Shown in pieces: positions 401-41,871 of a DNA stretch of 52,555 nucleotides; position 1 is the stretch's first letter, and every line of letters starts with the position of its first letter. The DNA lies in IMG/VR virus record IMGVR_UViG_3300022602_003287, positions 1 to 52,555 of that record; one strand, given 5' to 3'. Source of the DNA: a virus. The notes below the pieces were generated by a model, which did not search any database, was not told where the DNA came from, and saw only the letters and a program-made list of their open reading frames with translations. A program made the position numbers and the translations under genes.

Positions 401-474
401 CTAGTAATCGTTTCTGTATTTGTTGACTTCCTTGCCGACACTCGGTGGTTTGAATACTGCTGGTAATGTACCTA
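401..474 (-). other. Out-of-frame coding tail of the upstream 281-aa gene (frameshift)
   Basis: Directly after, and partly overlapping, the stop of the 281-residue gene, the -1 frame reads 29 good codons: TPRPNLGTLPAVFKPPSVG followed by KEVNKYRNDY and a TAG at 401-403. The final VG....YRNDY closely matches the C-terminus of the neighbouring 1145-residue protein (VGNAADQYRNDYY). It therefore looks like the lost or recoded C-terminus of the upstream gene. I see no classical slippery heptamer, so a one-base deletion, an assembly error or unusual recoding are all possible. Confidence 0.6.
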
Positions 475-1317
475 AGTTTGGTCGTGGCGTAGTATTGATC
501 CTACTATGGTCTTGCCAGCCGCGTCGGCAGCGGCATTAATTGCTGTAGGTACTGCCTTGGCGGCAGCTTCTTGACTGCCGTGTAATAATTCATCGACTGC
601 ATTTTTTACAAAGACATTTTCTATCTCTGTATCTGCTAGATGTTCAATTCCCTGTATAGCGCCTCCGATAACTGCGCCTATGGCCGCACTTTTTACACCT
701 GATTTTGCCGCGGCAGATAATTTAGATCCTAGCAATAATTTCATACCAAAACTAACAAGACCTGCTACAGCGGCTCCAGCAAGAATACTCGGCCCTGCTA
801 CAGATCCTGCCGCTACCGTTCCTGCAGTTAAAGCAAGGCTGGCCGCTAATTGAACTAGTGTAAGTATTGCTATCTCTGCGTATTCGTTTGATTCCGCGAT
901 TTCTCTTAGTTTATCTATACTTTTTAGTATAGAAGGTCCAAAAGAGGTCTTACCCATTTTAGCAGTAATCTGTTGCTTTAGCTGATCAAACTTTTGATCA
1001 AAGCCTTCTACTGGGCCACCGGGGTTATTCATTATTTGCTGTAGTTGCATTTTAGCATTTACAGCCATTGCTTTTAGTTTATCTAAAACACCTGTGGGTT
1101 GTGCTTGTTTTTGAGGTTGCTGAACTTGTTGTGGCTGTTGTTGAACCTGTTGTTGAGGTTGCTGTCCGGCAGGAACTGGGATTGCCGCTTCGAAGATTTC
1201 AAAAACTTGTCTAGGAGTAAGATCTCGCTGATGTAGATTAATTTCTCTCCCGAGGTCCTCAAACAACTGGGTAACTTGCCGTTCTCTACTTTCGAATATA
1301 AACTCTTTTGCTCGCAT
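472..1317 (-). CDS. Putative capsid-internal protein with CTS-like leader, Q-rich linker and membrane-like helices
   Basis: 281 residues. The N-terminus MRAKEFIFE-S resembles the T4 capsid-targeting leader of internal proteins (MKTYQEFIAE-A). Residues 51-72 are a glutamine/proline linker. Residues 148-197 and 211-222 are Ala/Gly/Leu-rich and hydrophobic, like membrane-inserting helices. The C-terminal half is amphipathic and helical. I do not recognise the family. The ATG has no Shine-Dalgarno and lies 4 nt after an ATAAATA late box, so the mRNA may be leaderless. The reading frame is broken at the end: the next frame continues with a plausible tail down to 401. Packaging in the head and a role at DNA entry are inference. 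Confidence 0.55.
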   Translation of the reverse strand: MRAKEFIFESRERQVTQLFEDLGREINLHQRDLTPRQVFEIFEAAIPVPAGQQPQQQVQQQPQQVQQPQKQAQPTGVLDKLKAMAVNAKMQLQQIMNNPGGPVEGFDQKFDQLKQQITAKMGKTSFGPSILKSIDKLREIAESNEYAEIAILTLVQLAASLALTAGTVAAGSVAGPSILAGAAVAGLVSFGMKLLLGSKLSAAAKSGVKSAAIGAVIGGAIQGIEHLADTEIENVFVKNAVDELLHGSQEAAAKAVPTAINAAADAAGKTIVGSILRHDQT

Positions 1318-1369: not shown

Positions 1370-4300
1370 CTAGTAATAATCGTTTCTATATTGATCTGCC
1401 GCATTTCCAACGCCTGCTGATCTTTTGAGATTTTTAATAGTCTTATGAACCGTGCGACCTAGGCTAGGTGGTTCATTTTCTCCCTTATGAATATTATAGC
1501 TGGGATTCCATGCCTTTTTTAGTTGATTTTTTAAAGAATAAGGGTCACCCACTTTTGGATCTGTTTTAGGGGTGTATAATTTTTTCTCTATCCGAGCAAT
1601 ATATTTTTTAAGTTCAGGATCAACTTCTTCCAATGCTAATTTTTTAGCAAATTTCTTCAATATACGGTCTTCATACATGTCGCTAGAGTGTTTTTCAAAA
1701 TATTGATGTTCTAGATAGTGTTTGCTAGAGCTTACGCATTCACTGGCCTTAGTAAGTTTCATGGCTACCCATCCATCTAATCTAGTTTCAGGTTTTATCA
1801 TCTTGAACAGCTTCATGCTATATTCTACGATCTCTTGTAGATTCATTCTTGCTATATCACCGCTTGGTTCGGCTTCGCTTTCTTTAATACCTTTATCGTC
1901 TTTTTCTGGACCATCGACTGCTGGCTCGAATTTGGTACGATAATCTAGATAATGGTAAACCTTGTCTAACCATGTAGCGGCGTTAGTTAGGTTAGCGGCT
2001 ACCCAAGGTTCGATATCATCATTTGGTTCGATCATCTTTAATAGATCCATAGCATATTTGGCATTACGATATAGTTCGCTACGTGCCATCTGACCTTCTG
2101 GATCATGATGTTGTTTAGGTTCAAACTCATCGTCTCCTAATCCCATGATGTCTTCGTTCATTATACTTTCCTTGATTCTTTTTCCGTCTTTGTTATACTT
2201 GCCGGATTTTTTCTTAGAGATAGCAATAGCACCACGAATCTGAGCCGCACTCGCTTCATCCATGGCTTCCTTAAATCCTTTACCAGGTATCCATCCTTTG
2301 ATAGGCTTGCACTTGCAGGAATCCCCAGGACATTTGCAGTTCTTCATACCACACTGCATACAACGTTTTTCTTCGCCTTCCGCCACACCTTGCTCATCAG
2401 CATAGCAATCATCGCAATAAACATTTCCGTTGTCATCTACATTACTATCTTCGCCTGGTCCAGCATGACCTGTAGGTGCACCGCAACTATCGCAGTGTTC
2501 TTCTCTGGGATGATTGGTCTGACCAAATGTTCTGCCATCTCGGGGAATGTGCGATTGAGAATGACGGTCCCATACTGCTTCCGCCACACCTGACTTTCGA
2601 GCATCGCCAACAGTGCTCAAGAACTTTTTGTTTTTGTAAATCTTGGCATGGTCTGAATGGCCACTTTGTAGTGCATGACCTATTTCTCGATAACTATACA
2701 TGCCGGGCTTGTCGGGATCATTGGTCACTGTATATGAGTCCGAGCCTTCCGCCACACCTTGCTTAAAACTGTTAGCACTGATAATTTTTACATTAGCAGG
2801 AACACCTAGTGCTAATGCGGCATAGAGCCGTGTTCTACCACCAATTACATAAACACCTGTAGGTAATTTCAATAGCACTGGTGGGTCGTAGTTTCCAGAT
2901 TTGACATATTGGATGTAGCCAGTTATATCACGCTGGCGTCCCTCACCTGCATCACGGGCCTGCATCAGTTTTATATATTGTTGTTCTGCATCTGGTCTGC
3001 CACTAATCTGTTGGATTGCTTTCAATGTTTGAGCATCGTTGCCTTTGTTGGCAAGATTTTTTAATTTAGGAATGCTTGCGGCAGGTATTTGTGTAGATGA
3101 CGCTCTATCAATAATAGGTGTTATTTTTTCCACACTTTGTTCATCATTACCGTATCCCATTTGTTTGACAAATTGTTGTATTTCTGGCACAGGTTGTCCT
3201 ACCAATTCCCACGCTTCATCTGACGATGCTTCATTTAAGAAGCCTTCCGCCACACCTTGCTTCAACTGTGATAGTATTTGTTCTTTTTGTTTTAGTAATT
3301 CTTTGCGTTTTTCAACAAAAGCCATACTATTAGGTTCTCCAACTGGACCACCTCTCATTAATTTTAACTTTTGATTGATTGATTGAAGTTGTGCGTGTAA
3401 TTCTTCCTTGCCTTCCGCCACACCTTGCTCTTGACCTAAAGCCTGTTTAATAAATGCCTGATGTTGTGGTTCTAAATCAGTTAGCATTTGTTTTGCCTGA
3501 GCAGTTTTATACTGTTGTCTTGCTACATCTGCCATAGCATAAGCACTGGCTAGTTTTGAAGCCTGACTAGCTAACTCTGGATTATCTTTTAAATAAGAAC
3601 GAATACTTCCATAAGCACTGGCCCTATCAACTGGATTTAAATTTAATAACTTATTAAGTTTATCTGCGACAAATGGATCCATGCCTTCCTCTATACTTTC
3701 GTTAGACACACATTTACGAACCCATCCGCCATTCTTACCTTTTTTAGTACCCTTGGCATGTTTACCTGGCCAGCATCGAGTAAAGCCATTACTGTCTTTT
3801 TGACCTTTCTTAATTTCATTAAGATTACCATGTGTTTCGCACATACCGCACTCAGGACATACCATTTCCATTACTTCATGGCTTTCGTTATGTTTCTTCT
3901 TGCCGGCACAATGAGCCTTTTGACTGAAACCTTTAGGATGGCTACAGTTGATTGATTTCTTATACTTTTGGCTCCACGCTTCTGCTATATTTTGTTTTTT
4001 AGCGGCAGCGATACGTGAGTGGAGGTTACGTAATCCATGTTCCATACCGCGTGCTTCGCGCTCGGCACTGGTTAGATTTTGTTCACGGTCGGCATACTGC
4101 CATCCGCTACCACCTAGTGATTTATATCTCGCTAGCATCTTTTCATACTCTGCTTCTAGTTCTGGAAGATTGGCAGCGTCCTGTGCTATAGCATCTTGGG
4201 CACGTTGGTTGGCCGATGCACGTTCTGCATCTTGTCTTACTTGCCTCTGACGACGTAGTTCGTCATGTTCTGGATCACCATGCACACGTAGATTCTTGAA

Positions 4301-4807
4301 CCTAGGATCAGTCTTCTGTAGATCCTTGAAGAAAGACATCATATCTTTACTTTCGTCAGTTGGCTCGTCGACTCCCCATGAAGGGCTAGTATCTATTAGG
4401 TGAGCTATTTGGCGCCAGTAATGATCGCTCATCTTACCGTAGCCATAACTCCATGCCTTGCTACGTGCGAGTTCTTCTACACTCTTGCCTTTCTGATTAG
4501 CCAGGCCTTGGAAATACTGTGCCAGCTTCTCAGGAGTATCATTCCTCATTTCGAAATTCTGTTTAGCCTTACCTAGTGGATGGCTGGCTTCTCCTATTAC
4601 ACTGATAACAGTCTCCATCATCTCGGCTTTCTTATGTTTGGCCTTACGTGGCTGTGTAGTAGCATCTTTAGGATTCTTATGTGCTCCTGCCTTGCCGGCC
4701 ATCTTACTATTTTTAGCCACAGGGCTTTTTACAGTCGCAGGTTCTGTGGGTTTAGTATGCATTGGATATTTTTTAGCCTTGAAGCCTTTTTTATGTTCGT
4801 TTATCAT
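1370..4807 (-). CDS. Modular polyprotein-like protein with repeated prohead-protease-like sites
   Basis: 1145 residues, built from unrelated small modules joined by short glutamate motifs. Visible junctions include IGE-A (73/74), IAE-A (276/277), IEE-G (374/375), VAE-G (465/466, 521/522, 687/688, 810/811), LNE-A (526/527), VAE-A (743/744) and MDE-A (851/852). These fit the T4 gp21 cleavage pattern [I/L]xE-[A/G/S]. Modules include a basic Cys/His segment (278-305), a Cys-rich piece (317-366), a ParB-like piece with IGGRTRL (655-661), two zinc-ribbon-like pieces (772-801, 816-833) and two related helical modules with W-V-A (907-961 and 985-1040). The tail ends YRNDYY. Best guess: precursor of several virion-internal peptides. 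Functions of the modules are unknown. Confidence 0.6.
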   Translation of the reverse strand: MINEHKKGFKAKKYPMHTKPTEPATVKSPVAKNSKMAGKAGAHKNPKDATTQPRKAKHKKAEMMETVISVIGEASHPLGKAKQNFEMRNDTPEKLAQYFQGLANQKGKSVEELARSKAWSYGYGKMSDHYWRQIAHLIDTSPSWGVDEPTDESKDMMSFFKDLQKTDPRFKNLRVHGDPEHDELRRQRQVRQDAERASANQRAQDAIAQDAANLPELEAEYEKMLARYKSLGGSGWQYADREQNLTSAEREARGMEHGLRNLHSRIAAAKKQNIAEAWSQKYKKSINCSHPKGFSQKAHCAGKKKHNESHEVMEMVCPECGMCETHGNLNEIKKGQKDSNGFTRCWPGKHAKGTKKGKNGGWVRKCVSNESIEEGMDPFVADKLNKLLNLNPVDRASAYGSIRSYLKDNPELASQASKLASAYAMADVARQQYKTAQAKQMLTDLEPQHQAFIKQALGQEQGVAEGKEELHAQLQSINQKLKLMRGGPVGEPNSMAFVEKRKELLKQKEQILSQLKQGVAEGFLNEASSDEAWELVGQPVPEIQQFVKQMGYGNDEQSVEKITPIIDRASSTQIPAASIPKLKNLANKGNDAQTLKAIQQISGRPDAEQQYIKLMQARDAGEGRQRDITGYIQYVKSGNYDPPVLLKLPTGVYVIGGRTRLYAALALGVPANVKIISANSFKQGVAEGSDSYTVTNDPDKPGMYSYREIGHALQSGHSDHAKIYKNKKFLSTVGDARKSGVAEAVWDRHSQSHIPRDGRTFGQTNHPREEHCDSCGAPTGHAGPGEDSNVDDNGNVYCDDCYADEQGVAEGEEKRCMQCGMKNCKCPGDSCKCKPIKGWIPGKGFKEAMDEASAAQIRGAIAISKKKSGKYNKDGKRIKESIMNEDIMGLGDDEFEPKQHHDPEGQMARSELYRNAKYAMDLLKMIEPNDDIEPWVAANLTNAATWLDKVYHYLDYRTKFEPAVDGPEKDDKGIKESEAEPSGDIARMNLQEIVEYSMKLFKMIKPETRLDGWVAMKLTKASECVSSSKHYLEHQYFEKHSSDMYEDRILKKFAKKLALEEVDPELKKYIARIEKKLYTPKTDPKVGDPYSLKNQLKKAWNPSYNIHKGENEPPSLGRTVHKTIKNLKRSAGVGNAADQYRNDYY
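2376..3430 (-). repeat. Five interspersed copies of a 20-bp repeat coding for QGVAEG linkers
   Basis: On the plus strand GCCTTCCGCCACACCTTGCT occurs at 2376-2395, 2744-2763, 3242-3261 and 3410-3429. A shorter variant occurs at 2578-2591 (CTTCCGCCACACCT). On the coding strand each reads [K/E]-Q-G-V-A-E-G, or S-G-V-A-E-A for the variant. The four full copies are identical even at third codon positions, while the modules between them are unrelated. The copies therefore look like a spreading linker cassette and not only protein-level convergence. Confidence 0.85.
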
Positions 4808-5361
4808 TGCCTTCTCACTAGTTTAGTTTTTTTCTTCTTAGGAGTTCCTTCTGATTCTCCATAAGTTCCACCGAATAATGTTCCTACTTGGCTAGGTTTC
4901 TTGCCGCCGGTTTTATCCGTAGCACTATAAGTCATACTGCCTGAATTTGTGCTACCCGATGTAGCGGATGATTCTTTTACTTTTTTCTTTTTCTCTCTAC
5001 TATGAGGATTCCAATCTGGGACTGGACTAGTTGTGTATGTATCTTTTAATTCTTTACTACCACCTGGTGTAAGTTGTACTTTAGGAGTCCCTACTAGATC
5101 CGCTGCCGCTTGTAATATGTCATCTTCGGCTTGTGTATACCCGATAGTTACAAACTTCAATCCCGTCGGCCCTGCTACATCCATCTTTTGATCTGGCATA
5201 CCAGCTAGAGCGACACCGAATCTATAAGCGAGATAACCACTGCTATTATCAAGTTCCGGATATATGTGACTATTAGGTAGGCTTGATACACTATCGGGAT
5301 GGAATCCACTGGCTCCTGCATAATCTTTTGATTCTTTAACTATAAATTCTCTTGCTCTCAT
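4804..5361 (-). CDS. Putative internal head protein with CTS-like leader (paralog A)
   Basis: 185 residues. The leader MRAREFIVKE-S is 10 residues and ends in Glu before Ser, like T4 MKTYQEFIAE-A. The core (residues 21-121) has YRFGVALAG (46-54), TIGYTQAEDDI and DTYTTSPVPDWNPHS. These match the next upstream protein, so the two are tandem paralogs. The tail (122-185) is Lys/Ser/Gly-rich and ends KKKKTKLVRRQ, suited to contact DNA. The start overlaps the upstream stop by 4 nt (ATGA), so translation is probably coupled. Family not recognised; head location is inferred from the leader and the neighbours. Confidence 0.6.
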   Translation of the reverse strand: MRAREFIVKESKDYAGASGFHPDSVSSLPNSHIYPELDNSSGYLAYRFGVALAGMPDQKMDVAGPTGLKFVTIGYTQAEDDILQAAADLVGTPKVQLTPGGSKELKDTYTTSPVPDWNPHSREKKKKVKESSATSGSTNSGSMTYSATDKTGGKKPSQVGTLFGGTYGESEGTPKKKKTKLVRRQ

Positions 5362-5789
5362 GATCTTGGGTTCCAGTTATTGACGGGGCTTTTTACATAG
5401 GTATCATCGGGTTCAGTGCTGCCATGTTTAGTCATGGCTGATCCTTTTAGTCCCATTTCTTTCGCACTCTTTTTTATGATATCTAGATCGGCACTACTAT
5501 AAGCTATAGTTAACATTTCATTTGACGCAGGGCCATTCTGCGCATATTCTTGGTCTAATGGGCTGCCAGCCATATGAACACCGAACCTGTACATATTATA
5601 ATAGTGGGCGGGTAGGTCTGGATAATTCATGACATCGGGGATGACATTTTGATGATGGGGATGGAATTTCTTCCTGTTGCCACTCATACCACCGTTGGAG
5701 CTATTACCATTACTTCCGCTAGATGATCCGCTGTCACCTCCGGCATCTCCACCACCTCCATCCTCGTTGATTATTTCTCTCCAGCGCAT
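5358..5789 (-). CDS. Putative internal head protein with CTS-like leader (paralog B)
   Basis: 143 residues. MRWREIINE-D forms a short leader like those of its neighbours. A Gly/Ser/Asn spacer (11-38) and a His-rich patch (HPHHQ) follow. The core, with YRFGVHMAG (67-75), TIAYSSADLDI and DTYVKSPVNNWNPRS, matches paralog A downstream. Unlike A it lacks the Lys-rich tail. The ribosome-binding site AAAGGA lies 8 nt upstream. The function is unknown; duplication plus divergent tails suggests two related virion components. Confidence 0.6.
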   Translation of the reverse strand: MRWREIINEDGGGGDAGGDSGSSSGSNGNSSNGGMSGNRKKFHPHHQNVIPDVMNYPDLPAHYYNMYRFGVHMAGSPLDQEYAQNGPASNEMLTIAYSSADLDIIKKSAKEMGLKGSAMTKHGSTEPDDTYVKSPVNNWNPRS

Positions 5790-5792
5790 AGT

Positions 5793-6230
5793 TTATCCTT
5801 TAAGGCTGGCACGCAAGAACCAACCATGTTTACGATGAGCATCCATACGCTCTGCTAAGAAGTTGCTAAATCCGTGTTCGCCGTGTTGCTCGGCAAGATC
5901 ATAAACCAGTTTTAAAACTTTAATTAGTTTTTCATTATCTTGTAGTAGTTCCTGTACCATGCCCTCTTTAGGTAGTAGATGATTTTCATCTGGTATCTGG
6001 CTTAACATACTGAAAGCACTGTGGCTAGCGGGTACATATGCTCCTATGCTACGTATCTTTTCTGCGAAGTCATCTATGCTATCTAATACTTCTTGATAGA
6101 TGCCTTCGAATAACTTATGGTATTCATAGAAGTCATTGCCTTCGACGTTCCAGTGAAAGTTATGGCTCTTCAAATAAAAGCTGAATGTGCTAGCGAATCC
6201 TATCTTGGCTGCTTTCTGCAGATCTTCCAT
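5793..6230 (-). CDS. dps: Dps/ferritin-like DNA-protection protein
   Basis: 145 residues with the Dps signature SHNFHWNVEG and the helix LFEGIYQEVLDSIDDFAEKI. The ferroxidase-site residues are in place: H26, H38, E42 (usually Asp), D53 and E57. Dps forms 12-mers that oxidise and store iron and protect DNA from peroxide. There is no long basic N-terminal tail, so DNA binding would be weak or by another surface. It stands 3 nt from the CTS-leader gene pair, inside the block of putative head proteins. A CTAAATA box sits 26 nt upstream. It could act in the infected cell or be carried in the capsid; the second is speculation. Confidence 0.88.
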   Translation of the reverse strand: MEDLQKAAKIGFASTFSFYLKSHNFHWNVEGNDFYEYHKLFEGIYQEVLDSIDDFAEKIRSIGAYVPASHSAFSMLSQIPDENHLLPKEGMVQELLQDNEKLIKVLKLVYDLAEQHGEHGFSNFLAERMDAHRKHGWFLRASLKG

Positions 6231-6263: not shown

Positions 6264-6527
6264 TCATTTCTTCCATAGCTCTATCCAAGCGGGCGTACCG
6301 GGCTTGATGCCCATTTGTTTCGCTAACTTAGTGTTAGGATGGTCGGGATTAAGATAATCAGGACGAGCCTTGGGGGTATTCATATATTCTGCCAGCCTCG
6401 TTTCTGCTCCTAGCTCACCTAACCAGTTACTTGGCATCAGTTTATGTATGGGGTCGTCTGGACTTAGGAAACAATCAGGATCCGTGGATGCTGAATATTG
6501 ATGTCCTGTTATCCTATATTGCTTCAT
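6264..6527 (-). CDS. Conserved small phage protein of unknown function
   Basis: 87 residues, acidic, with no membrane segment. Two similar pieces repeat within it: DPDCFLSPDDPIHKLMPSNW and PDYLNPDHPNTKLAKQMG, each of the form hydrophobic-PDxP-xx-K/L-hydrophobic. The ATG overlaps the stop of the 961-residue gene by 4 nt, so the two are probably translated together. I do not recognise a family. Confidence 0.6.
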   Translation of the reverse strand: MKQYRITGHQYSASTDPDCFLSPDDPIHKLMPSNWLGELGAETRLAEYMNTPKARPDYLNPDHPNTKLAKQMGIKPGTPAWIELWKK

Positions 6528-9409
6528 TTGCTTGCTAGTATCTTGATGTATCCCGCCATGATGCGTTCTATATCTTCATTAACGGGCACCTGGGCTGTCT
6601 TCTTATCTTTATTTGATAGGAAATCAGAGATATCCTGTTCGCTGTACCCTAACAGACGTCCTAGTTTTTCGTGGAATGAATCGGTAGGTGGTCGTCCGCT
6701 CGCTATAACCTGTTGGAATAACTGCGATATTTGTTTACCTGAATAAGCATCCTTACTGATGGCGAAACTATCATAGTTAGCGAATGCCTTGAAAGGAGTG
6801 ACGATCCATCCAAACTTCTCTATGTAAGGCCGCCATTCTGCCATTTCGTGCGGGAATATCAATGCGGCTGGCTTCTTGCCTTTTATCATGAGTTCGAGTT
6901 CTTTACCATTATGCGGACCTATGGCTTCTGCTACGGTTTCTCGATAAGGACGAACCCATGAGAATCTCGTATCGGCCGGTATCCATTTGATCCCTAGTCC
7001 CCTATTGCCCATAGCAGGATCTGTGTCTATCAATAACCAGTTCTTTTGTTCGCTAAATGGAACAGAGTGTTGTTTCCTAAGTATACGTACGATCTTACCA
7101 GTGGCTTCTATTTTGCCCATCATAGCATCTTCATTAACTTTCTCCGATGCTTCTTTAGTAAGGTATTTTGCGTCTCCTTTTTCTCTCCATTTCTTCCACA
7201 TTTTTTCGCCATCTTTGGATTGAATTTCACTTGGGGCAATAGGTGTTCCTAACATTCTAAGATAAGCATACATTGTTGCGGCAACACCTTTACCTCGATA
7301 TTCTGGTAACACAGTTGTTTTTATACTTTCCATCTTATTATTGTAAGGTGAACTAGCAAATATTGCACTACCTATTTTTTTATTGTTATCTAATGCTGTA
7401 ATAGTAATAAAAATTTCTTGATCATCTATATCAGTTTTTGCATTATAAGTGTAATCACCGATTTCTTGTGTATGATTAAATCTTTTATCCCAGAGGTCGT
7501 AGTTATACTCCTCTTCTCTTGCTTCTGCTATACCTTCCTCACATCCGCCACCGACTAGATCACCTGCACGAGCCGGACGTTTCATATTACCTTTTAGCTG
7601 ACCTGCTGATCCTAGTTTATTCTTATTGCTACCAGGAAACACGCTCTTGGGCAACATGGCCTCTTTAGCTGGTTCTTCTTTATTATGATCTGGTTTCTTA
7701 TCGGGCATAATAGCATCGAGATATTTTTTAGCACGTTCTCTTTCGCCTTTAGATTTTTCACGTTCTCTTTCAAAGGCCCTTTGTAGTTTTTCTGCGGCAC
7801 TCATTCGCCTTGTTTCTTGTATTCCTATACCTCCAGGCATACTTACATAGTTGGCACTGCCTACTCCGGGTCTGCGACTTTCTGGACTCCCATTGTCACC
7901 ATATCCGCCTTCTTTGGTTTTACGGCTTTTCCTAGGAACGGGTGCTAGATTTATTTTAAGGTCTTCCCATAGCTGATGTGCTGTTCGATCATCTAGTGTA
8001 GACGGTAAGTCTCGCCTAAAAGAATCCCAGTCGTCTTGCTTGACAAATTCTTTCATCTGACTGCTACTTTCCGCATCTGGGTCTCTATCTACTGCTACAA
8101 ACCCCATATCATCAAAATGGAAATCGATCCCATTCTGCTTTTCTAAAAGTTCTTTGAAATTTAGCTTACCTTCCATCCTGTCTCGTCCAGCGACCATAAT
8201 GATTTTTTTATATTTTTGATTTATGTGTTGTGCTATGTGTATTATGGTACCCATCTGTTCATTACAGGGTACAAAGTTTACTCCAGGAAATGCCTTGGTA
8301 ATATAAGGCATCTTTTGATCTATAGACAAAGGATTAGCATATTTTGTCGCGGTAGTATCTCCTACTTTCTTAGATACGAATATCGCATAGTCAGCATGAT
8401 GCTGTTGTGCTGTTGTTTTAACTTTATCGATCAATAACTTGTGGCCGTTGGTAGGAATCTGGAAGCGGCCAAATGCGAATACCATAGTATCCGGACCTGC
8501 GGTTTCCAATAGGGCATTAAACAGTCTTATCTGCTTTTTGTTCTCGCTGAATGTTTGTCTTATCTTGTCCAATGCGGACTCCTTGCCTGCGCCCTTAGCT
8601 GTACCTACTTCGCCACTCTTAACGGTAATCATGCTAGCGAACACACCTTGTATGCGTTGGCTACTGCGTGGATTCTTAATAACCTGTTTAGTTTTATTTA
8701 ATAATTCTTCGAAGCTAGAATTCAAATCGTATTGATATAATAACTTCTGTAAATCCTCCCAGTTCTGGCTAGACCATATAATTTCTCTATCTAGTTGTTT
8801 AAATGTTCCTTGTTCATAGGTGACTTTACGTAGTTCTAGTTTTACACTAGATAGATTAAATTCATATTCTTGATCTGGACCTAGTTCTGTTGAAGCATTT
8901 ATTCCTAGTTTTTTAAACAATATCGCCGGAGCTGTTTCTATGGTAGCTACTTTAACTAGACCTAATACTAGGCCCTGCTTCTCAGCTGGCATATCTAAGA
9001 AGTGTTGCTTGAAAGATACTTCACCTTCATCTGCGGCAATTATGTTGTCAATCTGTACGCTGTATCCCATCTCATCGTCGTGATATCGTACAGTAACTAT
9101 CTCACCGCTGTTATAAGTCCTTTTGCCTGGATGTTTGACACTGGTAAAAGGCACGATAGTAGTATCTGGTTGTTTTTCAAAAAACTTAACCAGTTGTTTC
9201 TTTGTTGTAGCTTTATCCTGATCTGACTGTATATGTGCTATAAGATCTATATCACCGAAGTTTTGTTTGTTAGGATCGCTATTATAGCTTCCTGATTTGT
9301 TTAAGCTGACGAATCCAGGGAACTGTTTTATAAGAGGTAAGTAGCTGGCTACGAATCTCTCATAGTCTTGTCTGCTTTTAACTCTTTCTGCTCCAGTGAC
9401 TCCGCTCAT
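6524..9409 (-). CDS. Multidomain protein: Pol-beta-type nucleotidyltransferase, HxGH-type cytidylyltransferase fold, GNAT, C-terminal modules
   Basis: 961 residues. Domain 1 (about 10-260) has GSYNSDPNKQN followed by GDIDLI (52-57), the metal-binding pattern of Pol-beta-fold nucleotidyltransferases. Domain 2 (about 305-490) has FGRFQIPTNGHKLL (313-326) and VAGRDRM, the pattern of the cytidylyltransferase superfamily seen in T4-like phages. Residues 500-620 are low-complexity and charged. IAE-A at 629/630 precedes a GNAT-like domain (631-750) with LPEYRGKGVA (701-710). VAE-A at 828/829 precedes a last module. The IAE/VAE sites match the putative prohead-protease sites in the 1145-residue protein, so this too may be processed. 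The substrates are unknown. Confidence 0.65.
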   Translation of the reverse strand: MSGVTGAERVKSRQDYERFVASYLPLIKQFPGFVSLNKSGSYNSDPNKQNFGDIDLIAHIQSDQDKATTKKQLVKFFEKQPDTTIVPFTSVKHPGKRTYNSGEIVTVRYHDDEMGYSVQIDNIIAADEGEVSFKQHFLDMPAEKQGLVLGLVKVATIETAPAILFKKLGINASTELGPDQEYEFNLSSVKLELRKVTYEQGTFKQLDREIIWSSQNWEDLQKLLYQYDLNSSFEELLNKTKQVIKNPRSSQRIQGVFASMITVKSGEVGTAKGAGKESALDKIRQTFSENKKQIRLFNALLETAGPDTMVFAFGRFQIPTNGHKLLIDKVKTTAQQHHADYAIFVSKKVGDTTATKYANPLSIDQKMPYITKAFPGVNFVPCNEQMGTIIHIAQHINQKYKKIIMVAGRDRMEGKLNFKELLEKQNGIDFHFDDMGFVAVDRDPDAESSSQMKEFVKQDDWDSFRRDLPSTLDDRTAHQLWEDLKINLAPVPRKSRKTKEGGYGDNGSPESRRPGVGSANYVSMPGGIGIQETRRMSAAEKLQRAFEREREKSKGERERAKKYLDAIMPDKKPDHNKEEPAKEAMLPKSVFPGSNKNKLGSAGQLKGNMKRPARAGDLVGGGCEEGIAEAREEEYNYDLWDKRFNHTQEIGDYTYNAKTDIDDQEIFITITALDNNKKIGSAIFASSPYNNKMESIKTTVLPEYRGKGVAATMYAYLRMLGTPIAPSEIQSKDGEKMWKKWREKGDAKYLTKEASEKVNEDAMMGKIEATGKIVRILRKQHSVPFSEQKNWLLIDTDPAMGNRGLGIKWIPADTRFSWVRPYRETVAEAIGPHNGKELELMIKGKKPAALIFPHEMAEWRPYIEKFGWIVTPFKAFANYDSFAISKDAYSGKQISQLFQQVIASGRPPTDSFHEKLGRLLGYSEQDISDFLSNKDKKTAQVPVNEDIERIMAGYIKILASK

Positions 9410-11402: not shown

Positions 11403-12010
11403 CAAGTATTTATGCTTGATCTAGTTATATATTCTTCAAGTTTTCGATGATCAGACCCTATAAACAGTAATACCATACTGAGTGTAGGGCCATCTTTGAT
11501 ATAGATAAAGGGTTCTGGATAGTATACTGTCATGCCCTCTAACCAAATACGTGTTTTTCCTGAGTATTTTATACTATAATTTTGTTCGGCCCAAGATGCG
11601 AATTTATTCCTATTTTCTTTCGACATAGAAGGTCTCAGATGCATCTTGTATTTGAATCCGCCCTTAGGTAGTTCGTTACACATGACCTTCTTTGGCCCGT
11701 CGCTTTCTAAGACTGATAGTTCTTCTTCATTGGCTGGGCTGGTTATTCCCACGATCCACTTACCTACTTTTTTTTCGATCTGCGGTATCAGCTCCTTATC
11801 ATTAAAAAAGAAACTATGGATATTATTCTCAGATCTAGTTTTTACATCATTGTGATTAGTTATAGTTTTTGAAATGGCATAAAAATCATAGACTTCCTTA
11901 TACATACTCGGGGCCAACTTGTATCGAGTACGTCCTATTCCTTTTACACTACAATCTATCTTATAACGATATTTGTTATAAAATAGTTTATTCGTTGTCA
12001 GCTGTTGCAT
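11402..12010 (-). CDS. Unknown protein, possible small nuclease-like or structural factor
   Basis: 202 residues with mixed alpha/beta composition. No signal peptide, membrane helix or clear catalytic motif is visible. It contains KGGFKYKMHLRPSMSKENR and FIYIKDGPTLSMVLLFIG, the latter like a core beta strand pair. The start overlaps the 3' end of clpA by 23 nt, so it is probably read from the clpA transcript. I do not recognise it. Confidence 0.5.
   Translation of the reverse strand: MQQLTTNKLFYNKYRYKIDCSVKGIGRTRYKLAPSMYKEVYDFYAISKTITNHNDVKTRSENNIHSFFFNDKELIPQIEKKVGKWIVGITSPANEEELSVLESDGPKKVMCNELPKGGFKYKMHLRPSMSKENRNKFASWAEQNYSIKYSGKTRIWLEGMTVYYPEPFIYIKDGPTLSMVLLFIGSDHRKLEEYITRSSINT
11407..11413 (-). 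promoter_or_regulatory. T4-type late promoter box, leaderless geometry
   Basis: ATAAATA, then CTTG, then ATG. It lies inside the last codons of the upstream gene. The predicted transcription start falls on the ATG of the downstream gene, exactly as at 1322-1328. Confidence 0.45.
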
Positions 12011-14264
12011 CTTCGATGACCTTAGGTTTAGTTACAGGTAATGGATCTAAGAAGTTTAGGGTCAGCTTATCGCCATCGACGCCTATTTCTACGATACCAC
12101 CGTTGGTTAACTTGCCGAACAATATCTCTTTACTTAATGGTTTCTTGATATGTTCGTCGATGGTGCGTTGTAATGGACGTGCGCCCATCTTGCTATCGAA
12201 TCCTTTCTTGATTAGATATTCAACAGCATCTACATTAGGTTTAACATGAACATTCTTATCTTTAATAAGACTATTAAGTTCATCGATAAACTTCTTGACT
12301 ACTTTGATCATAGTCTGTTGATCCAACTTACCGAAGCGTATGATACCGTCTAAGCGATTGCGGAACTCAGGAGCAAAGAACTTGTTAACAGCATCTTTAG
12401 GATCGCCGTCTCTTTCTAGGCTACCAAATCCGAGACTATTCTTTTCGGCATCTGCGGCACCTAAGTTGCTAGTCATGATAAGAATAGCGTTGCGAGCATC
12501 TGCCTTCTTGCCATTGCTTCCAGTTACAAATCCGTTATCCATTAACTGTAATAAAACAGTTAACACATCCGGATGAGCTTTTTCGACTTCATCTAATAAC
12601 AATACACAGTTAGGATGTTCTTGTAGTTTAGTGATCAACTGACCTGCGTTGTCTTCAAATCCTACATATCCCGGAGGGGCGCCGATGAACTTGGCCACGC
12701 TATGTTTCTCTTGGAACTCACTCATATCAAAACGCACTAGTTCAACACTGAGATTGCTGGCTAACTGTTTAGCGGCCTCTGTCTTACCAACACCGGTAGG
12801 TCCTACAAACAAGAAACTACCTACAGGTTTATCTAAGCCTTTTAATCCTGCCTGTGCCATGAAAATCTTATCAAGTATGCTTTCTACGGCTTTTTCCTGT
12901 CCATAGACTTTGTTCTTCATATTTTTTTCTAGATCTTTGAGATTTTTATTTTCTTTGGCCGCGATTTGATCTAAGGGTAATCCTGTAATCTTAGATACTT
13001 CAAATACTATTTCATCGTGATCAACAGTTCCGCCTTCTTCGTCATTGACCTTAAATCTAGCACCGGCACAGTCGATAAGATCTAATGCCTTGTCTGGCAG
13101 CTTTTTATCTGACATATATTTGACACTATATTTCACGCTGTCAATAATAGCCTGTTTAGTGATCTTGATATTGTGATGCTTCTCGTAATACTTCTTAACA
13201 CCATTAAGTATCTTAATAGCCGTAGCTTCATCGGGCTCATTGATAACCACACGTTGGAAACGTCGCATCAGTGCGCGATCCTTTTCAAAGTGTTTACGAT
13301 ATTCTTCCCAAGTAGTTGATGCTACTACTTTGATAGTTCCTTTGGCCAAGGCAGGTTTAAGCATATTGCTCATGTCATTGCTGGAACCACTGACAGCACC
13401 GGCACCGCTCATCATGTGTGCTTCATCGATAAACAATATACAGTTCTTCTTGCGTTCGAGAGCTGTAAGAACCATCTTTAGTCGTTCTTCGAAATCACCT
13501 CTATACTTACTACCTGCTAACATAGCACTGATGTCTAAACTATACACTGTATGGTCTTTGATGAACTTAGGAACAGTTCCATCTTCGATACGTTTTGCTA
13601 GACCCTCGGCGATAGCAGTCTTACCTACACCTGGATCTCCAATCAACATGACATTTGATTTATGCCTACGTGCCAATACCAATGTCAGTTCTTCAATCTC
13701 TTTTTCACGTCCAATAACTGGATCAATCTTTTTGGCTTTGGCTCTAGCTGAAAGATTACTACAGAACTGAACGATTAGTTTTTCTAACTGTCGATTATTG
13801 ACTTCGCTTATTTCGCTTTCTTCTAATACGTTATTATCTTTTTGTATAAACTCGATAAACTTATCTTTATCTATTTTTGCTAATCGCATGAAATATAAAC
13901 TATAGCTTTTCTTTTCGCTGAAAATACTAATAAAACAATCGATAGGTTCTATAGTGCTACGTCCGCTGAATAGTACCTGTGTAAAGGCACGATTTAATAC
14001 TCTGTCGATGGTATTTGTTTTCTTTGGTTTTTCTATATGTTCTTCGTTAACTAGATCTTTGAGTTCGTTTTCAATAAAAGTTTCTAGATTAATTTTTAAT
14101 ATATCAACATCCGCACCGTAGTTGACTAATACTTCATTGAATTTTTTATCAAGTATCAGGCTGTATAGGAAATGTTCTAATGTAAGATATTCGTGTTTAT
14201 TTCTACTTGCTATACCTACAGCCTTTTCAAAAATAGCTTCTAGGTCTTTATTTGGTTCTAACAT
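11988..14264 (-). CDS. clpA: ClpA-type AAA+ unfoldase
   Basis: 758 residues, the length of E. coli ClpA. It has an N-domain (1-145), a first AAA+ module with Walker A GDPGVGKT (209-216) and Walker B CILFIDEAH, and a second with GPTGVGKT (488-495) and VLLLDEVEKAH. No ClpB-type coiled middle domain is present. LGF at 611-613 sits where ClpA and ClpX carry the IGL/IGF loop that docks on ClpP, so partnership with the ClpP coded at 49694 is likely. ClpA unfolds proteins with ATP and feeds them into ClpP. It is the third gene of a dnaJ-def-clpA operon. Whole clpA genes in phages are rare in my knowledge. Confidence 0.93.
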   Translation of the reverse strand: MLEPNKDLEAIFEKAVGIASRNKHEYLTLEHFLYSLILDKKFNEVLVNYGADVDILKINLETFIENELKDLVNEEHIEKPKKTNTIDRVLNRAFTQVLFSGRSTIEPIDCFISIFSEKKSYSLYFMRLAKIDKDKFIEFIQKDNNVLEESEISEVNNRQLEKLIVQFCSNLSARAKAKKIDPVIGREKEIEELTLVLARRHKSNVMLIGDPGVGKTAIAEGLAKRIEDGTVPKFIKDHTVYSLDISAMLAGSKYRGDFEERLKMVLTALERKKNCILFIDEAHMMSGAGAVSGSSNDMSNMLKPALAKGTIKVVASTTWEEYRKHFEKDRALMRRFQRVVINEPDEATAIKILNGVKKYYEKHHNIKITKQAIIDSVKYSVKYMSDKKLPDKALDLIDCAGARFKVNDEEGGTVDHDEIVFEVSKITGLPLDQIAAKENKNLKDLEKNMKNKVYGQEKAVESILDKIFMAQAGLKGLDKPVGSFLFVGPTGVGKTEAAKQLASNLSVELVRFDMSEFQEKHSVAKFIGAPPGYVGFEDNAGQLITKLQEHPNCVLLLDEVEKAHPDVLTVLLQLMDNGFVTGSNGKKADARNAILIMTSNLGAADAEKNSLGFGSLERDGDPKDAVNKFFAPEFRNRLDGIIRFGKLDQQTMIKVVKKFIDELNSLIKDKNVHVKPNVDAVEYLIKKGFDSKMGARPLQRTIDEHIKKPLSKEILFGKLTNGGIVEIGVDGDKLTLNFLDPLPVTKPKVIEDATADNE

Positions 14265-14266
14265 CT

Positions 14267-14770
14267 TTATTTCCTTTTGTGTTTTGGTTTAGATTTTTTA
14301 ACAGCCATAGCCCATTTTAAAGTACTAACTCTGTCTTGGAATACGATCCCTTCTAGGTGATCTAGCTCATGGAGAAAACATTTACACTCGTAATCCCTAA
14401 ATTCTCCTTCTTGGAATTCTCCTGCACTATTTTGCCACCGTGCTTTTATCGCGGTAGGTCTTTTTATATTAACATAGATACCTGGAAAACTCAAACATGC
14501 CTCCTCCAGATCGTGTATATCATCTGTTGATGCTAACACTATAGGATTATAAAATGCCTGTGCGGCATCGGGGATATCTTTGTGTCCCATGACGAACATT
14601 CGGACTCGATGCCCTACCTGGTTGGCCGCTAGTCCCATGCCGTTGTTAGCAAACATGGTTTCTATCATATCTTTTTCAAGTTGTTTTGTATCGATGGATG
14701 TATCGCTGAAATCAAATTCAGGCATCCGTTCTCTTAATATGAGATCTGGAAAGTTGATTATTTTTAACAT
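14267..14770 (-). CDS. def: Peptide deformylase
   Basis: 167 residues with all three deformylase motifs: GMGLAANQ (44-51), EACLS (90-94, usually EGCLS) and HELDH (134-138). C92, H134 and H138 would bind the metal and E135 is the catalytic base. It removes the formyl group from new N-termini in the cytoplasm. It stands 2 nt from clpA and just after dnaJ. The Gly-to-Ala change in motif 2 is conservative. Phage deformylases are known from marine cyanophages; they probably help rapid processing of phage proteins. Confidence 0.95.
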   Translation of the reverse strand: MLKIINFPDLILRERMPEFDFSDTSIDTKQLEKDMIETMFANNGMGLAANQVGHRVRMFVMGHKDIPDAAQAFYNPIVLASTDDIHDLEEACLSFPGIYVNIKRPTAIKARWQNSAGEFQEGEFRDYECKCFLHELDHLEGIVFQDRVSTLKWAMAVKKSKPKHKRK

Positions 14771-20743: not shown

Positions 20744-20797
20744 AAAACCGTGTATCAATCATTGACCTGCAATCGGCGATTGACTACACGGTTTTTT
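20744..20797. terminator. Terminator between phoH and gp44, probably bidirectional
   Basis: AAACCGTGTA (20745-20754) pairs with TACACGGTTT (20785-20794). An inner CAATC...GATTG stem extends it. The plus-strand transcript then has a T run. On the minus strand the hairpin ends in TTTTA. The gp44 stop codon lies in the T tract, so the two convergent genes share the element. Confidence 0.85.
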
Positions 20798-21716
20798 ATT
20801 GCAGTCTAGCTAGTTTGACCAACGTTGCTGACAGGTTTATTTCAGCATCTGCGCATAGTGTATGATCGACTAATCCCTGTTTGATTATGATCACCGCTGA
20901 ATCTTTAGTTTCTTCATCTTTGCCGAACAGTCCGATGTTGTCGTAACACCATCTGTAGATCTCAGGCATCTCTTCTGCCGTAGCCCGACCGCATAGTAAC
21001 TTACGTGCTTCTTGTATCTTACCCTTCTTGAACAGTTCAACCATCTCTATCTTATAGTCGCTGACTCCACTATCTTCGACTTTGGGATCAACTAGCATTC
21101 CTTCTACGCTGTTCTGTTGCACTAGATTGATACATTTGCGTAGGTCTGGATATACCGCTTTGACATAGGTATCTAATACATCTAGATCAAACTCAACGCC
21201 TTCTTCTACTAGGATAGTGGCTACCCTTGCTGTATATTCAACTTGATCAATCGATGCAAAGTGCATCTGTTGGCAACGGCTGTGTAGTGCTGGAACGATC
21301 CTCTGCGGAGTATTACAGGTTAATATAAATCTACTGTGATTAGAATATTCTTCCATTACTCCTTTGAGGGCATCTTGAGCTTCAGGAGTCAATCGATCTG
21401 CCTCATCTAGCAATACACATTTGAAAGCACTAAAAGGGATCATCTGGACAAAGTTAGTGATACGTTCGCGGACTTCGCTGATACCTCTTTCACGACTCGC
21501 ATTGATCTCTAATATATCATATTCTGATATCTCGAGCTCATTCAATAATAGTTTGGCCAGTGTAGTCTTTCCTATACCAGGGGTGCCACTTAGCAACAGA
21601 TGTGGTATGCTACCTTCTTTGATCCAACCCTGTATCTGTTTTTTCTGTCCAGCATCGCGGAACACATAACCATCTACTGTTTTCGGACGGTATTTTTCAG
21701 TCCAGAGTTCTTTCAT
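20796..21716 (-). CDS. 44: Sliding-clamp loader large subunit (gp44-like)
   Basis: 306 residues. Walker A GTPGIGKT (44-51), Walker B VLLDEAD (101-107) and the SRC motif (146-148) identify an RFC/gp44-type AAA+ clamp loader. With gp62 it loads the gp45 clamp on primer ends using ATP. gp62 is not adjacent, unlike T4; convergent phoH stands downstream. It ends the operon that runs from about 23380, with an overlap of 4 nt to the gene before. Confidence 0.93.
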   Translation of the reverse strand: MKELWTEKYRPKTVDGYVFRDAGQKKQIQGWIKEGSIPHLLLSGTPGIGKTTLAKLLLNELEISEYDILEINASRERGISEVRERITNFVQMIPFSAFKCVLLDEADRLTPEAQDALKGVMEEYSNHSRFILTCNTPQRIVPALHSRCQQMHFASIDQVEYTARVATILVEEGVEFDLDVLDTYVKAVYPDLRKCINLVQQNSVEGMLVDPKVEDSGVSDYKIEMVELFKKGKIQEARKLLCGRATAEEMPEIYRWCYDNIGLFGKDEETKDSAVIIIKQGLVDHTLCADAEINLSATLVKLARLQ

Positions 21717-26403: not shown

Positions 26404-28122
26404 TTACCTGGCACCCGTTGTACGTCTTGGATAAGCGGCCCCAGACTTAGGTCTAAACCCGTAATTTTCTTTAGGGAAACTAGATCCAGTTTTTAAGACT
26501 TTGTACAATGATGTACCCACCGGCACACCCAATCCTGTTACAGCATCCCAACCTACTGTAGAATTGTAACCCTGCACATATACGGCATTATATCCCGATA
26601 CGATATCATAAAACGCCGAAGGATTGGCATATAGAAAAGGATTGGCAAATCCTATCCTTTTTCCAGTTAGAGCATTTAATCTAGCTATCAAACCTGCTAC
26701 CATAGGAGTGGCCGCGCTTGTGCCACCGTACTGGACGTAACTATTGCTAGACCCTTCATAAAAGGTATATCCTGTATAAGGATCAGAATTTCCTGCTACA
26801 TCGGGAACTCCTCTTACAGCTAATGAAATAGGACTTCCAAAACTTCCACCTGTGGTGGCGGTAGTATAATATAATCCAGCTTGCCAACTAGGTAGTGACT
26901 GATATATGCTTTGTCCACCCCCCGATCCGTTCCATACTACTTCGCTTGACCTAGTCACACTGTTTTGGGCAGTAAGCTGTATAGAGGTTCCTCCCACTGC
27001 TGTGACGTAGCGACTAGATGCCGGATATTCAACTTCGGGCACATATCCTGCCCATGTTGACCCATTATCGCCACTACTAACAACGATGGTGATTCCTAAT
27101 ACAACAGACTGTGCTAATACCGCTTCGGTAGCGGACACAGTGCCGGCTGACCAATAACCATCAGTAGCATAGTTTTCACCAGCCCCCCAGCTAGTGCTGA
27201 GCACGCTAGGATTATTCACAGTATCATGTATCGCTGTATTAAAGTTATTGTACCAATTCGGTCCTGCTGTAGGGCTACTGGCTCCTGCTCCATATCCAAA
27301 ATACAACACCATTTTGCACAGTGGAGCCGATCCCCAAACGCAGTAGATATCTAACATGACTTCTGGAGCACCACCCGATTCAGTGGGATCGTTGACTCCT
27401 CCGTCTGTAAAAACATCAACTGTATCTACTCCTATTATAGGAACTCGTGGCATAGTAGCGCCGTTGACAGGAATATTCTGAGTGAAGGTACTGGTTAGAT
27501 TGTTTTGAGTATATCCACCTCCCCATTCCATGATACCTACAGTCACTCCATTAGCATCATTGCCGGGGTAGTTGTAGACCGCTGCCAGCTGCCATGTTGC
27601 TACAGCACCGGTGGTTTGAGGAATACTAGCATTCGTTATTGTGCCTTTATTTCTTTTTATTCTTACTGACTGATCTAGACCTAATACATATTCTACTACT
27701 CCGTGTAGAGTAGATGGGATATTTACTGGACCCGAGTGACTGATGAATGTTGTAGTAGTGTTGGTATAATCAGTTAATATAACTCCAAACGCAGAATTTA
27801 TCTGTAGAGCAGTTCCTGATAGTTTTATAGTGGCACTTGGCGTATGTATTTCTTCGATAATAAATCCCACAGTACTGGCAAAGTCTTTGATTAGATTAAT
27901 ATGGTTTTCTGAGGAACTAAATCGAGAACTAAATTCTTCGTATGATAATATAGGATTTTGTCCTGCTATTATGCTGTCGGCATACTCTGTAACTGATTCA
28001 GGACGATTCAGCATAATGTTAAACTTGATTATTGTATTATGATCAGTAGGAGCCGTCGATACTATATCGGTATAGTTATTAGGAGTACTGCTTGCTAAAC
28101 TAACAGTAGGAGTGAGGATCAT
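26404..28122 (-). CDS. Sedolisin-family (S53) serine-carboxyl protease in the fibre operon
   Basis: 572 residues. A pro-kumamolisin-like activation domain (about 30-155) precedes an S53 catalytic domain. Catalytic residues are in place: E254 and D258 in GAPEVMLDIYC, D352 in SSGDNGS, and S469 in GGTSAATPM. The C-terminal YDIVSGYNA...GWDAVTGLGVP matches the family's calcium-binding end. No signal peptide is visible, so the enzyme would be assembled on virions or released by lysis, not secreted. It lies between tail-fibre genes with a 0-nt gap to one. Sedolisins work at acid pH; here it may mature fibre proteins or degrade host surface proteins. The active site appears complete. Confidence 0.92.
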   Translation of the reverse strand: MILTPTVSLASSTPNNYTDIVSTAPTDHNTIIKFNIMLNRPESVTEYADSIIAGQNPILSYEEFSSRFSSSENHINLIKDFASTVGFIIEEIHTPSATIKLSGTALQINSAFGVILTDYTNTTTTFISHSGPVNIPSTLHGVVEYVLGLDQSVRIKRNKGTITNASIPQTTGAVATWQLAAVYNYPGNDANGVTVGIMEWGGGYTQNNLTSTFTQNIPVNGATMPRVPIIGVDTVDVFTDGGVNDPTESGGAPEVMLDIYCVWGSAPLCKMVLYFGYGAGASSPTAGPNWYNNFNTAIHDTVNNPSVLSTSWGAGENYATDGYWSAGTVSATEAVLAQSVVLGITIVVSSGDNGSTWAGYVPEVEYPASSRYVTAVGGTSIQLTAQNSVTRSSEVVWNGSGGGQSIYQSLPSWQAGLYYTTATTGGSFGSPISLAVRGVPDVAGNSDPYTGYTFYEGSSNSYVQYGGTSAATPMVAGLIARLNALTGKRIGFANPFLYANPSAFYDIVSGYNAVYVQGYNSTVGWDAVTGLGVPVGTSLYKVLKTGSSFPKENYGFRPKSGAAYPRRTTGAR

Positions 28123-40278: not shown

Positions 40279-41100
40279 TTACATGAATACTTCTTGTAAT
40301 TCTTGTTTGAGATCTTGGTAGGATAACAGATCTATAGCCTGATCTTGGAAGCTCTTGACCACTGTTTCTACAGCTTTTTCGGGACTTAGCCCTCTGCTTT
40401 GTAGATAATATATCTTTTCTATGTCTAGTTTTTCAGTCATAGACCCTATACTACTCTTGACCGAGTTACAGTCTGTATATATCTCGGGCTTGCTGAAACA
40501 GCGGCAGTTATCTCCCACAGTGAGATTCATATTCTCTACACTAGCTTCGCTGCCATTGCTGCCTTTACCTAATACCACGGTAGATTGATATACTGTTTGA
40601 CCATTATCGCTAGAGCGACCTAATATAAACTGACGACTGTTAGTTTGTTGATGCTGATGTATGACCCTGGTAACTATCTCAGTATCTCCTCCTACATCAT
40701 TGGTCATTAGGCCAAACGCATTAAATCCAGCTCCGGCTTCCATAGTTACCTGTATTATATGCTTGTTGAATTTACCATCTTTGACAAATATACCCAAGGT
40801 AAGATTACTGTTAGCCCTTAATATTATTTCGTATATGCAGACCTGCTGTAGTTTTTTATCAGCTTCATTTAGGACTAACAAATCAAGATGGCTATCTTCC
40901 CTCAGCTCAATCTTGATATTTTTAGCCAGCAAGTCCCGCTCATTGGGGTTCTGTCGCAAGGTCATATGTTCTTTAGCTCCAGGTACGACCTCTATCGAGC
41001 TAGCATCTACCATCTTGAATTCTTTTCCAAAGTACTGATCAGGAGTGAATGTCCAATCTGGGTCGCCTTTTTCAACTTTAAGAAAACTGTGTATAGCCAT
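40279..41100 (-). CDS. sufD: SufD-like Fe-S scaffold protein
   Basis: 273 residues, shorter than bacterial SufD (about 420). The beta-helix core is recognisable by repeated beta strands and by the C-terminal SSIGSMTEKLDIEKIYYLQSRGL, which matches SHGATVGQLDEEALFYLRSRGI of SufB/SufD. The family's His in SHG is Ile here. It overlaps sufC by 23 nt, so the two are made together. SufB is missing, so it may work with host SufB, compete with it or supply only part of the cluster-assembly complex. Confidence 0.82.
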   Translation of the reverse strand: MAIHSFLKVEKGDPDWTFTPDQYFGKEFKMVDASSIEVVPGAKEHMTLRQNPNERDLLAKNIKIELREDSHLDLLVLNEADKKLQQVCIYEIILRANSNLTLGIFVKDGKFNKHIIQVTMEAGAGFNAFGLMTNDVGGDTEIVTRVIHQHQQTNSRQFILGRSSDNGQTVYQSTVVLGKGSNGSEASVENMNLTVGDNCRCFSKPEIYTDCNSVKSSIGSMTEKLDIEKIYYLQSRGLSPEKAVETVVKSFQDQAIDLLSYQDLKQELQEVFM

Positions 41101-41806: not shown

Positions 41807-41812
41807 CGTAAT

Positions 41813-41841
41813 ATTATAAGTTATTGTTTGGTTATTGTCAA
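41813..41841 (-). promoter_or_regulatory. Consensus sigma-70 promoter of sufCD
   Basis: TTGACA (41836-41841), 17-nt spacer, TATAAT (41813-41818): perfect match to consensus. The predicted start is base 41806, the A of the sufC ATG. Confidence 0.85.
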
Positions 41842-41871
41842 ATCGCCTTAGAAATTCCGAAGTGCCTCCTT

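Follow-up and report, generated by a model that had tools for sequence, protein, structure and literature searches.

A stretch of 52,555 nucleotides (nt) from the IMG/VR virus record IMGVR_UViG_3300022602_003287 (positions 1 to 52,555; hereafter the window), derived from a large virus of aquatic bacteria, carries on its minus strand an open reading frame (ORF) of 1145 amino acids (aa) that probably encodes a polyprotein of internal head cargo, namely effectors of the polyvalent type, cut by the prohead protease and evolving by cassette exchange. The ORF begins with ATG and overlaps the upstream stop codon as ATGA. According to the proposed mechanism, the precursor, or its leader-bearing relatives, would be built into the prohead core in the manner of the T4 internal proteins; a T4-type prohead protease (gp21/Peptidase_S77) would cut it after Glu at [I/L/V/M]xE/small sites (a slash marks the predicted cut), freeing about ten small proteins, and these would be ejected into the host together with the DNA, where they may act as early effectors. 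The modules, which are unrelated and each close with such a site, are swapped in frame, and about half of the sites are one 20-bp sequence that would serve as a cut site in the protein and as a recombination seam in the DNA.

The preliminary description of this gene, made from the DNA letters alone, listed ten junctions between modules and proposed that they fit cleavage by a T4-type prohead protease. All ten are present in the ORF (Table 1), five of them being one repeated peptide, GVAE. The motif [ILVM]xE[AGS] occurs 12 times in the polyprotein compared with 3.7 in residue shuffles, and none of 2000 shuffles reaches 12; replacing its E by D, K or Q leaves no enrichment in the polyprotein, and only one of 15 other proteins of the window (20796..21716) yields p < 0.05 in this test. 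The junctions match the gp21 consensus, a hydrophobic residue followed by x-E with a small residue next (PMC9026906), and large contigs of the group encode a protease of this type, so that the proposed fit is upheld. The reading of the gene as a simple repeat protein was rejected because its modules are unrelated to one another.

Comparison with about 200 related viral loci places module boundaries at the Glu sites. For about 140 ORFs from different contigs, analyzed with GVAE masked, 1266 internal homology breaks were detected, 412 of which lie at most 8 aa from a GVAE site (154 expected, with a maximum of 180 in 200 trials). When each of the 20 residues was tested as Z in [ILVMF]xZ at the breaks, Glu was enriched 1.95-fold (1.91-fold without the VAE neighbourhoods), every other residue giving 1.03 or below, and near breaks away from VAE the motif [ILVM]xE[AGS] was enriched 3.0-fold. 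The ParB-like module, fetched by protein similarity, was found in four different settings, each bounded by xxE: its left edge reads KQGVAE/GFLNE/ASSDEAW in the window, KQGVAE/GSLNE/ in L173 and DVAE/NVLNE/V in L174, and in L175 it directly follows an N-terminal MRAKEFIVE/; the right-hand neighbours differ too, each behind VAE or LDE. Homologous modules that begin and end at Glu sites next to different neighbours identify these sites as true module boundaries. Module order in homologs does shuffle at the Glu sites, and the proposal withstands, in these loci, the refutation named in the preliminary description, namely boundaries falling away from these sites.

Many relatives start with M[RK]AxEFIxE/, which resembles the leader of the T4 internal proteins, a capsid targeting sequence (CTS) that gp21 cuts after L/I-x-E (PMC9026906); in the T4 record, IPII and IPIII both start with MKTYQEFIAE/A. 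Genes of the group contain 99 distinct M[KR]xxEF[IL]x(x)E/ leaders, compared with a single match in shuffles. In 39 leader proteins, the part behind the leader Glu is homologous to an internal polyprotein stretch, and at 546 of the 642 distinct leader/internal junctions the internal stretch lies directly behind xxE. Many of these 642 junctions involve the AWSQKYK module, the one used to fetch the loci, and the equivalence is also seen in the ParB-like, YLYHAT, AAWQ/DWQ, LSTNKLAQ, AFDQPY, YRDRMYQY and Cys-rich families. Because the same modules follow either, the Glu of the leader, where cutting of a known kind takes place, and the Glu inside the polyprotein are interchangeable as module boundaries, which provides the strongest argument that the polyprotein would be cleaved.

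The same evidence bears on the alternative that the chain is an uncut multidomain “polyvalent” protein, in which xxE and QGVAEG are flexible linkers kept because recombination takes place there and the chain enters the head and then the host in one unprocessed piece, as is reported for the virion RNA polymerase of N4. Polyvalent proteins can be packaged unprocessed (PMC5512222), and a common linker alone would also put homology breaks at the seam. This alternative nevertheless appears unlikely: sites of other codons and sequence (LNE, LDE, IAE, VKE) are boundaries as well, Glu is the only residue enriched, and the same modules start behind the Glu of a T4-like leader, a known cleavage point in T4 (PMC9026906).

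A prohead protease of the T4 kind is encoded within the group. Peptidase_S77 was found above the curated cut-off in 6 of the 19 contigs carrying the seam, and an alignment including T4 gp21 matched 8 of 25 further contigs, some of the 25 having been negative earlier; both searches combined, the family is present in 10 of the 14 contigs of at least 195 kb. In six phages the gene order around the protease is portal, gp67/68-like, protease, scaffold and gp23. The scaffold of these phages contains 9-16 [ILVM]xE[AGS] sites. Their gp23 sequences share L[AKL]E/[SN]A[TS]AG near residue 40, which would be the expected place of propeptide removal. The acidic gp67/68-like proteins that adjoin the prohead protease in the six large phages (L165-L170) contain runs of D, E and M. 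Because the window is a fragment without gp21, the protease of its own phage is inferred from these relatives. As an alternative to cutting in the prohead by this protease, cleavage by a different enzyme of host or phage, or inside the host once the protein has been injected, is rather improbable, even though zincin-like metallopeptidases have been proposed to process polyvalent proteins (PMC5512222) and the window itself encodes ClpP and a sedolisin-like protease; xxE/small is the gp21-type motif (PMC9026906), and the leader and gp23 sites match it.

About half of the junctions are also repeated as DNA, a feature absent from the preliminary description. The four QGVAEG copies of the window are one identical 18-nt string (0.01 expected). 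A 17-mer of this seam was found in at least 120 IMG/VR stretches, with about 160 copies outside the window among the matches listed, all of which read QGVAEG and have differing sequence on both sides; the reversed 17-mer, used as a control, had no match in viral contigs. The profile of 270 seam copies with unique flanks on both sides is a sharp-edged block of 20 nt, [AG]AG CAA GGT GTG GCG GAA GG[CT], i.e. [A/G]AGCAAGGTGTGGCGGAAGG[C/T]. In loci fetched by protein and not by the seam string, the spelling GGTGTGGCGGAA is used in 70 of 105 distinct GVAE sites (67%), where codon usage in these ORFs would predict 0.8%, and the other VAE, LNE, LDE and LAE sites have no dominant codon spelling. Bacterial genomes (257 Gb) gave 43 isolated matches to the 18-mer, most of them in unrelated genes of high-GC contigs, which looks chance-like; blastn with the 18-mer against cultured phages, the sensitivity of which for so short a query was unchecked, returned no match.

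Cassettes are exchanged at this seam. Where contigs match at the nucleotide level with 80% identity or more, 312 of the match ends fall at the seam in both contigs, with 1.0 expected and at most 5. The ParB-like cassette of the window (2746-3258) is identical over 513 of 513 bp in L171 (the same contig as L049) and L172, in which the flanks are unrelated, and identity drops to the chance level directly beyond both seams. The clamp loader of G020, the phage carrying L172, is 69% identical to that of the window; the cassette, being 100% identical, therefore moved recently between different phages. Homologous inter-seam modules are often equal in length (166 four times, 175 three times and 154 three times) and have different neighbours, 60 of 70 equal-length pairs having at least one unrelated neighbour. 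The gene thus gains modules, as the preliminary description had it, and also exchanges them. Since IMG/VR contigs are assembled from metagenomes and the seam repeats exactly, false joins at a 20-nt repeat might be thought to mimic shuffling. This explanation was rejected as hardly credible: identical junctions are seen in contigs of as many as six metagenomes and therefore assembly error is not the cause of the shuffling, L171 and L172 are identical over 8468 bp, and modules are shuffled also at xxE sites without common DNA and in cultured cyanophage genomes.

The frozen codons, the sharp 20-nt edges between 270 unique flank pairs and the exchange at the seam would also be expected if the string were solely a repeat involved in recombination, mobile or site-specific, or a trace left by such a repeat, and were read as QGVAEG by coincidence. 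Such an origin is very improbable, however, as the GVAE frame is open over 47 codons in 349 of 359 seam copies versus 22% of random windows, xxE protein boundaries without the DNA string behave alike, and no recombinase gene was recognised beside the polyprotein gene within the window. The simplest account of the exchange is ordinary recombination at 20 bp of identity, in which the cut site is maintained by selection and the DNA is kept uniform by the exchange itself, and homologous recombination at the seam would suffice without a dedicated recombinase. As in integron-like and site-specific cassette systems, a short conserved DNA site bounds exchangeable cassettes, and a dedicated cassette system inside a coding gene, in which the 20-bp sequence is both protease cut site and DNA recombination site, can be proposed tentatively. 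If so, any cassette landing between two 20-bp copies would automatically keep the reading frame, be packaged and be set free as an injected effector of its own, and the T4-superfamily phages that infect aquatic bacteria would share a common cassette pool.

Several observations weigh against a cargo polyprotein cut by the prohead protease. The 52.5-kb fragment contains neither gp21 nor capsid genes, and 4 of the 14 large contigs have no S77 match, which may reflect fragmentation or divergence. The window polyprotein does not have the canonical leader, starting instead with MINE/HKKGFKAKKY, a reduced form of the start of the relative L117, MNLRELLE/HKKGLKAKKY. With the five GVAE sites masked, the motif excess in the window polyprotein is modest (7 versus 3.3 in shuffles, p about 0.05). 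The residue following the cut (P1') is broad, including G, A and S but E, D and K as well. Finally, cleavage, packaging, ejection, the effector role and the location in the head are all inferred from sequence.

Table 1. Polyprotein gene of the window, its modules and junctions, the copies of the DNA seam, and neighbouring genes with leader-like starts.
Feature	Position	Strand	Remarks
Polyprotein gene	1370..4807	-	1145 aa
aa 1-73, basic N-terminal module	4589..4807	-	ends VIGE/A
aa 74-276, helical stretch(es)	3980..4588	-	ends NIAE/A; homology to relatives stops at Glu276
aa 277-374, AWSQKYKKSINCSHPKGFSQKAHCAGKKK module	3686..3979	-	ends SIEE/G
aa 375-465, helical module	3413..3685	-	ends QGVAE/G
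aa 466-521, coiled helical module	3245..3412	-	ends QGVAE/G
aa 522-526, GFLNE/	3230..3244	-	second site directly behind seam
aa 527-687, ParB-like cassette (tentative assignment)	2747..3229	-	ends QGVAE/G
aa 688-743, small module	2579..2746	-	ends SGVAE/A
aa 744-810, Cys-rich (zinc-ribbon-like) module	2378..2578	-	ends QGVAE/G
aa 811-851, second Cys-rich module	2255..2377	-	ends AMDE/A
aa 852-1145, C-terminal part	1373..2254	-	two related helical units, about 1934-2077 and 1703-1852
Junction Glu residues (aa)			73 IGE-A; 276 IAE-A; 374 IEE-G; 526 LNE-A; 743 VAE-A; 851 MDE-A
VAE-G junction Glu residues (aa)			465, 521, 687, 810
DNA seam copy 1	3410..3427	-	CAAGGTGTGGCGGAAGGC
DNA seam copy 2	3242..3259	-	
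DNA seam copy 3	2744..2761	-	
DNA seam copy 4	2375..2392	-	
Partial fifth seam copy	2578..2590	-	GGTGTGGCGGAAG, codes GVAE-A
Upstream neighbour with CTS-like leader	4804..5361	-	MRAREFIVKE/S
Neighbour with leader-like start	5358..5789	-	MRWREIINE/D
Downstream neighbour with CTS-like leader	472..1317	-	MRAKEFIFE/S

The window polyprotein combines disparate domains, ParB-like, Cys-rich and helical, in one polypeptide, as do its relatives. As to the module types named in the preliminary description, the two C-terminal helical units are indeed related (40% identity over 40 aa) and both Cys-rich pieces are visible directly in the sequence, and fold comparison is only suggestive of a ParB-like identity for aa 527-687. 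AlphaFold2 prediction for five sequences of this module gave a best model with pLDDT 81, the remaining four models having 41-45; the top Foldseek matches were ParB/Noc proteins with E about 0.2, and a second comparison gave Z 3-5. Pfam yielded no match for the ParB-like module alone and one sub-threshold match (DUF5344, E 0.017) for the whole polyprotein, for which PHROGs had none. The AWSQKYKKSINCSHPKGFSQKAHCAGKKK module is a small leader-bearing gene of its own in cyanophages and in many uncultured phages. A ferritin-like (Dps-type) gene (5793-6230, minus strand) lies three genes upstream of the polyprotein and adjoins leader-bearing genes.

Leader proteins of the group contain ART-PolyVal (PF18760, L115, E 5e-14), GNAT, GH19, GP88 and ASCH domains, and the ParB-like domain is found behind a leader too; polyvalent proteins, predicted to be injected, have a domain repertoire of this kind (PMC5512222). 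In two leader proteins (L189:5854-7080 and L017:1167-2540), GNAT or other domains are joined to a lysozyme-like GH19 domain, an arrangement suggesting that the head may carry cell-wall enzymes as well. By proteomics, virions of cyanophage S-SM1 contain the cytidylyltransferase T4-GC190 (PMC3037559); the leader start was read in its Syn33 homolog, which begins with MKKFSAFLTE/A. A 961-aa cytidyltransferase and GNAT protein of the window (6524-9409, minus strand) has internal EGIAE/AREEE and TVAE/AIGPH sites, and its nucleotidyltransferase part resembles the cyanophage cytidyltransferases (T4-GC190 in Syn33), the product of this gene having been found in S-SM1 virions; it is probably another cargo protein.

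Cultured phages contain related genes. Modules of the window polyprotein recur in the cyanophages S-SM2, P-TIM68, Bellamy and DSL-LC02; in P-TIM68 the module-sharing gene directly follows gp21, gp22, gp23 and one small gene, and Bellamy has the AWSQKYK-type module as a protein of 51 aa whose start, MKSFKQFQE/S, is leader-like. Genes of the Methylophilales phage Melnitz start with MQGFKTFLSE/A and MKKFSEIIE/A, and a run of Melnitz genes (L303, 12203-19789) with leader-like starts and xxE-rich modular proteins offers a possible laboratory model. Because cultured cyanophages and Melnitz carry such related modular leader-like genes, cleavage can be tested in the laboratory. Elsewhere, the window encodes a sedolisin/kumamolisin-like protease with an activation domain beside long tail-fibre-like genes (26404-28122, minus strand), an iron-sulfur and oxidative-stress block of adjoining genes for a SufBD-core protein, a SufC-like ABC ATPase and an Fe/Mn superoxide dismutase identified by Pfam (40279-42411, minus strand), and genes for ClpA-like, peptide deformylase, UvdE, D-Ala-D-Ala carboxypeptidase and ClpP proteins (11988-14770, 42754-43779 and 48880-50284).

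If the proposed polyprotein is cut as predicted, phages would diversify their injected proteins not one gene at a time but by cassette swaps within a single precursor, which the head protease would then separate, and T4 capsid targeting and gp21 cleavage would be joined with polyvalent injected effectors, two bodies of work kept apart in the literature considered. With the sequence rule of an MRAxEFIxE leader plus xxE cuts, injected anti-defence or takeover proteins could be sought among thousands of hypothetical genes in uncultured phages. The frozen 20-nt seam is a clear, testable case of a single sequence selected as protein and, apparently, also as DNA.

In comparison with known systems, the group shares with the T4 internal proteins IPI-IPIII and Alt the short M[KR]xxEFIxE/ leader before unrelated proteins and the hydrophobic-x-Glu cut site, and its phages encode the T4-kind S77 protease, scaffold and gp23. 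In T4, however, each internal protein has one gene and one main cut, whereas here about ten modules stand in one gene with a common DNA seam. In polyvalent proteins (Iyer et al. 2017, PMC5512222), too, a single phage protein combines numerous small domains of unrelated kinds, among them ParB-like, ART-PolyVal, GNAT and peptidoglycan-active ones as in this group, and injection is predicted; the difference is that for them either processing by a metallopeptidase of their own or no cutting at all is predicted, and the part of that account considered here describes neither xxE punctuation nor a shared DNA seam. In phiKZ and SPN3US, a gp21 homolog (gp175/gp245) cuts one internal head protein after several xxE (PMC5694885, PMC10052503, PMC9026906), but the multiple cuts reported there lie in long N-terminal propeptides that are largely discarded, whereas here the cuts would separate modules shuffled between phages. 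Cyanophage genes near gp16/gp17 and gp23 (SSM2_108/109 of S-SM2, AIR93449 of P-TIM68, 122/123 of Bellamy, and DSL-LC02) have several of the same modules, basic linkers and xxE-like junctions but do not contain QGVAEG and are annotated as hypothetical. The preliminary claim that no comparable phage polyprotein had been described holds for the literature searched: in open-licence papers no phage polyprotein cut into cargo by the head protease and no cargo polyprotein whose cut sites double as DNA exchange seams was found, and a full-text search for QGVAEG returned no paper. The claim has to be narrowed in view of two close precedents, the multi-xxE head proteins of phiKZ and SPN3US and the polyvalent proteins. 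The polyprotein works like the T4 internal proteins and like the polyvalent proteins and, given its reduced start and its nature as a multi-site precursor, is filed as neither.

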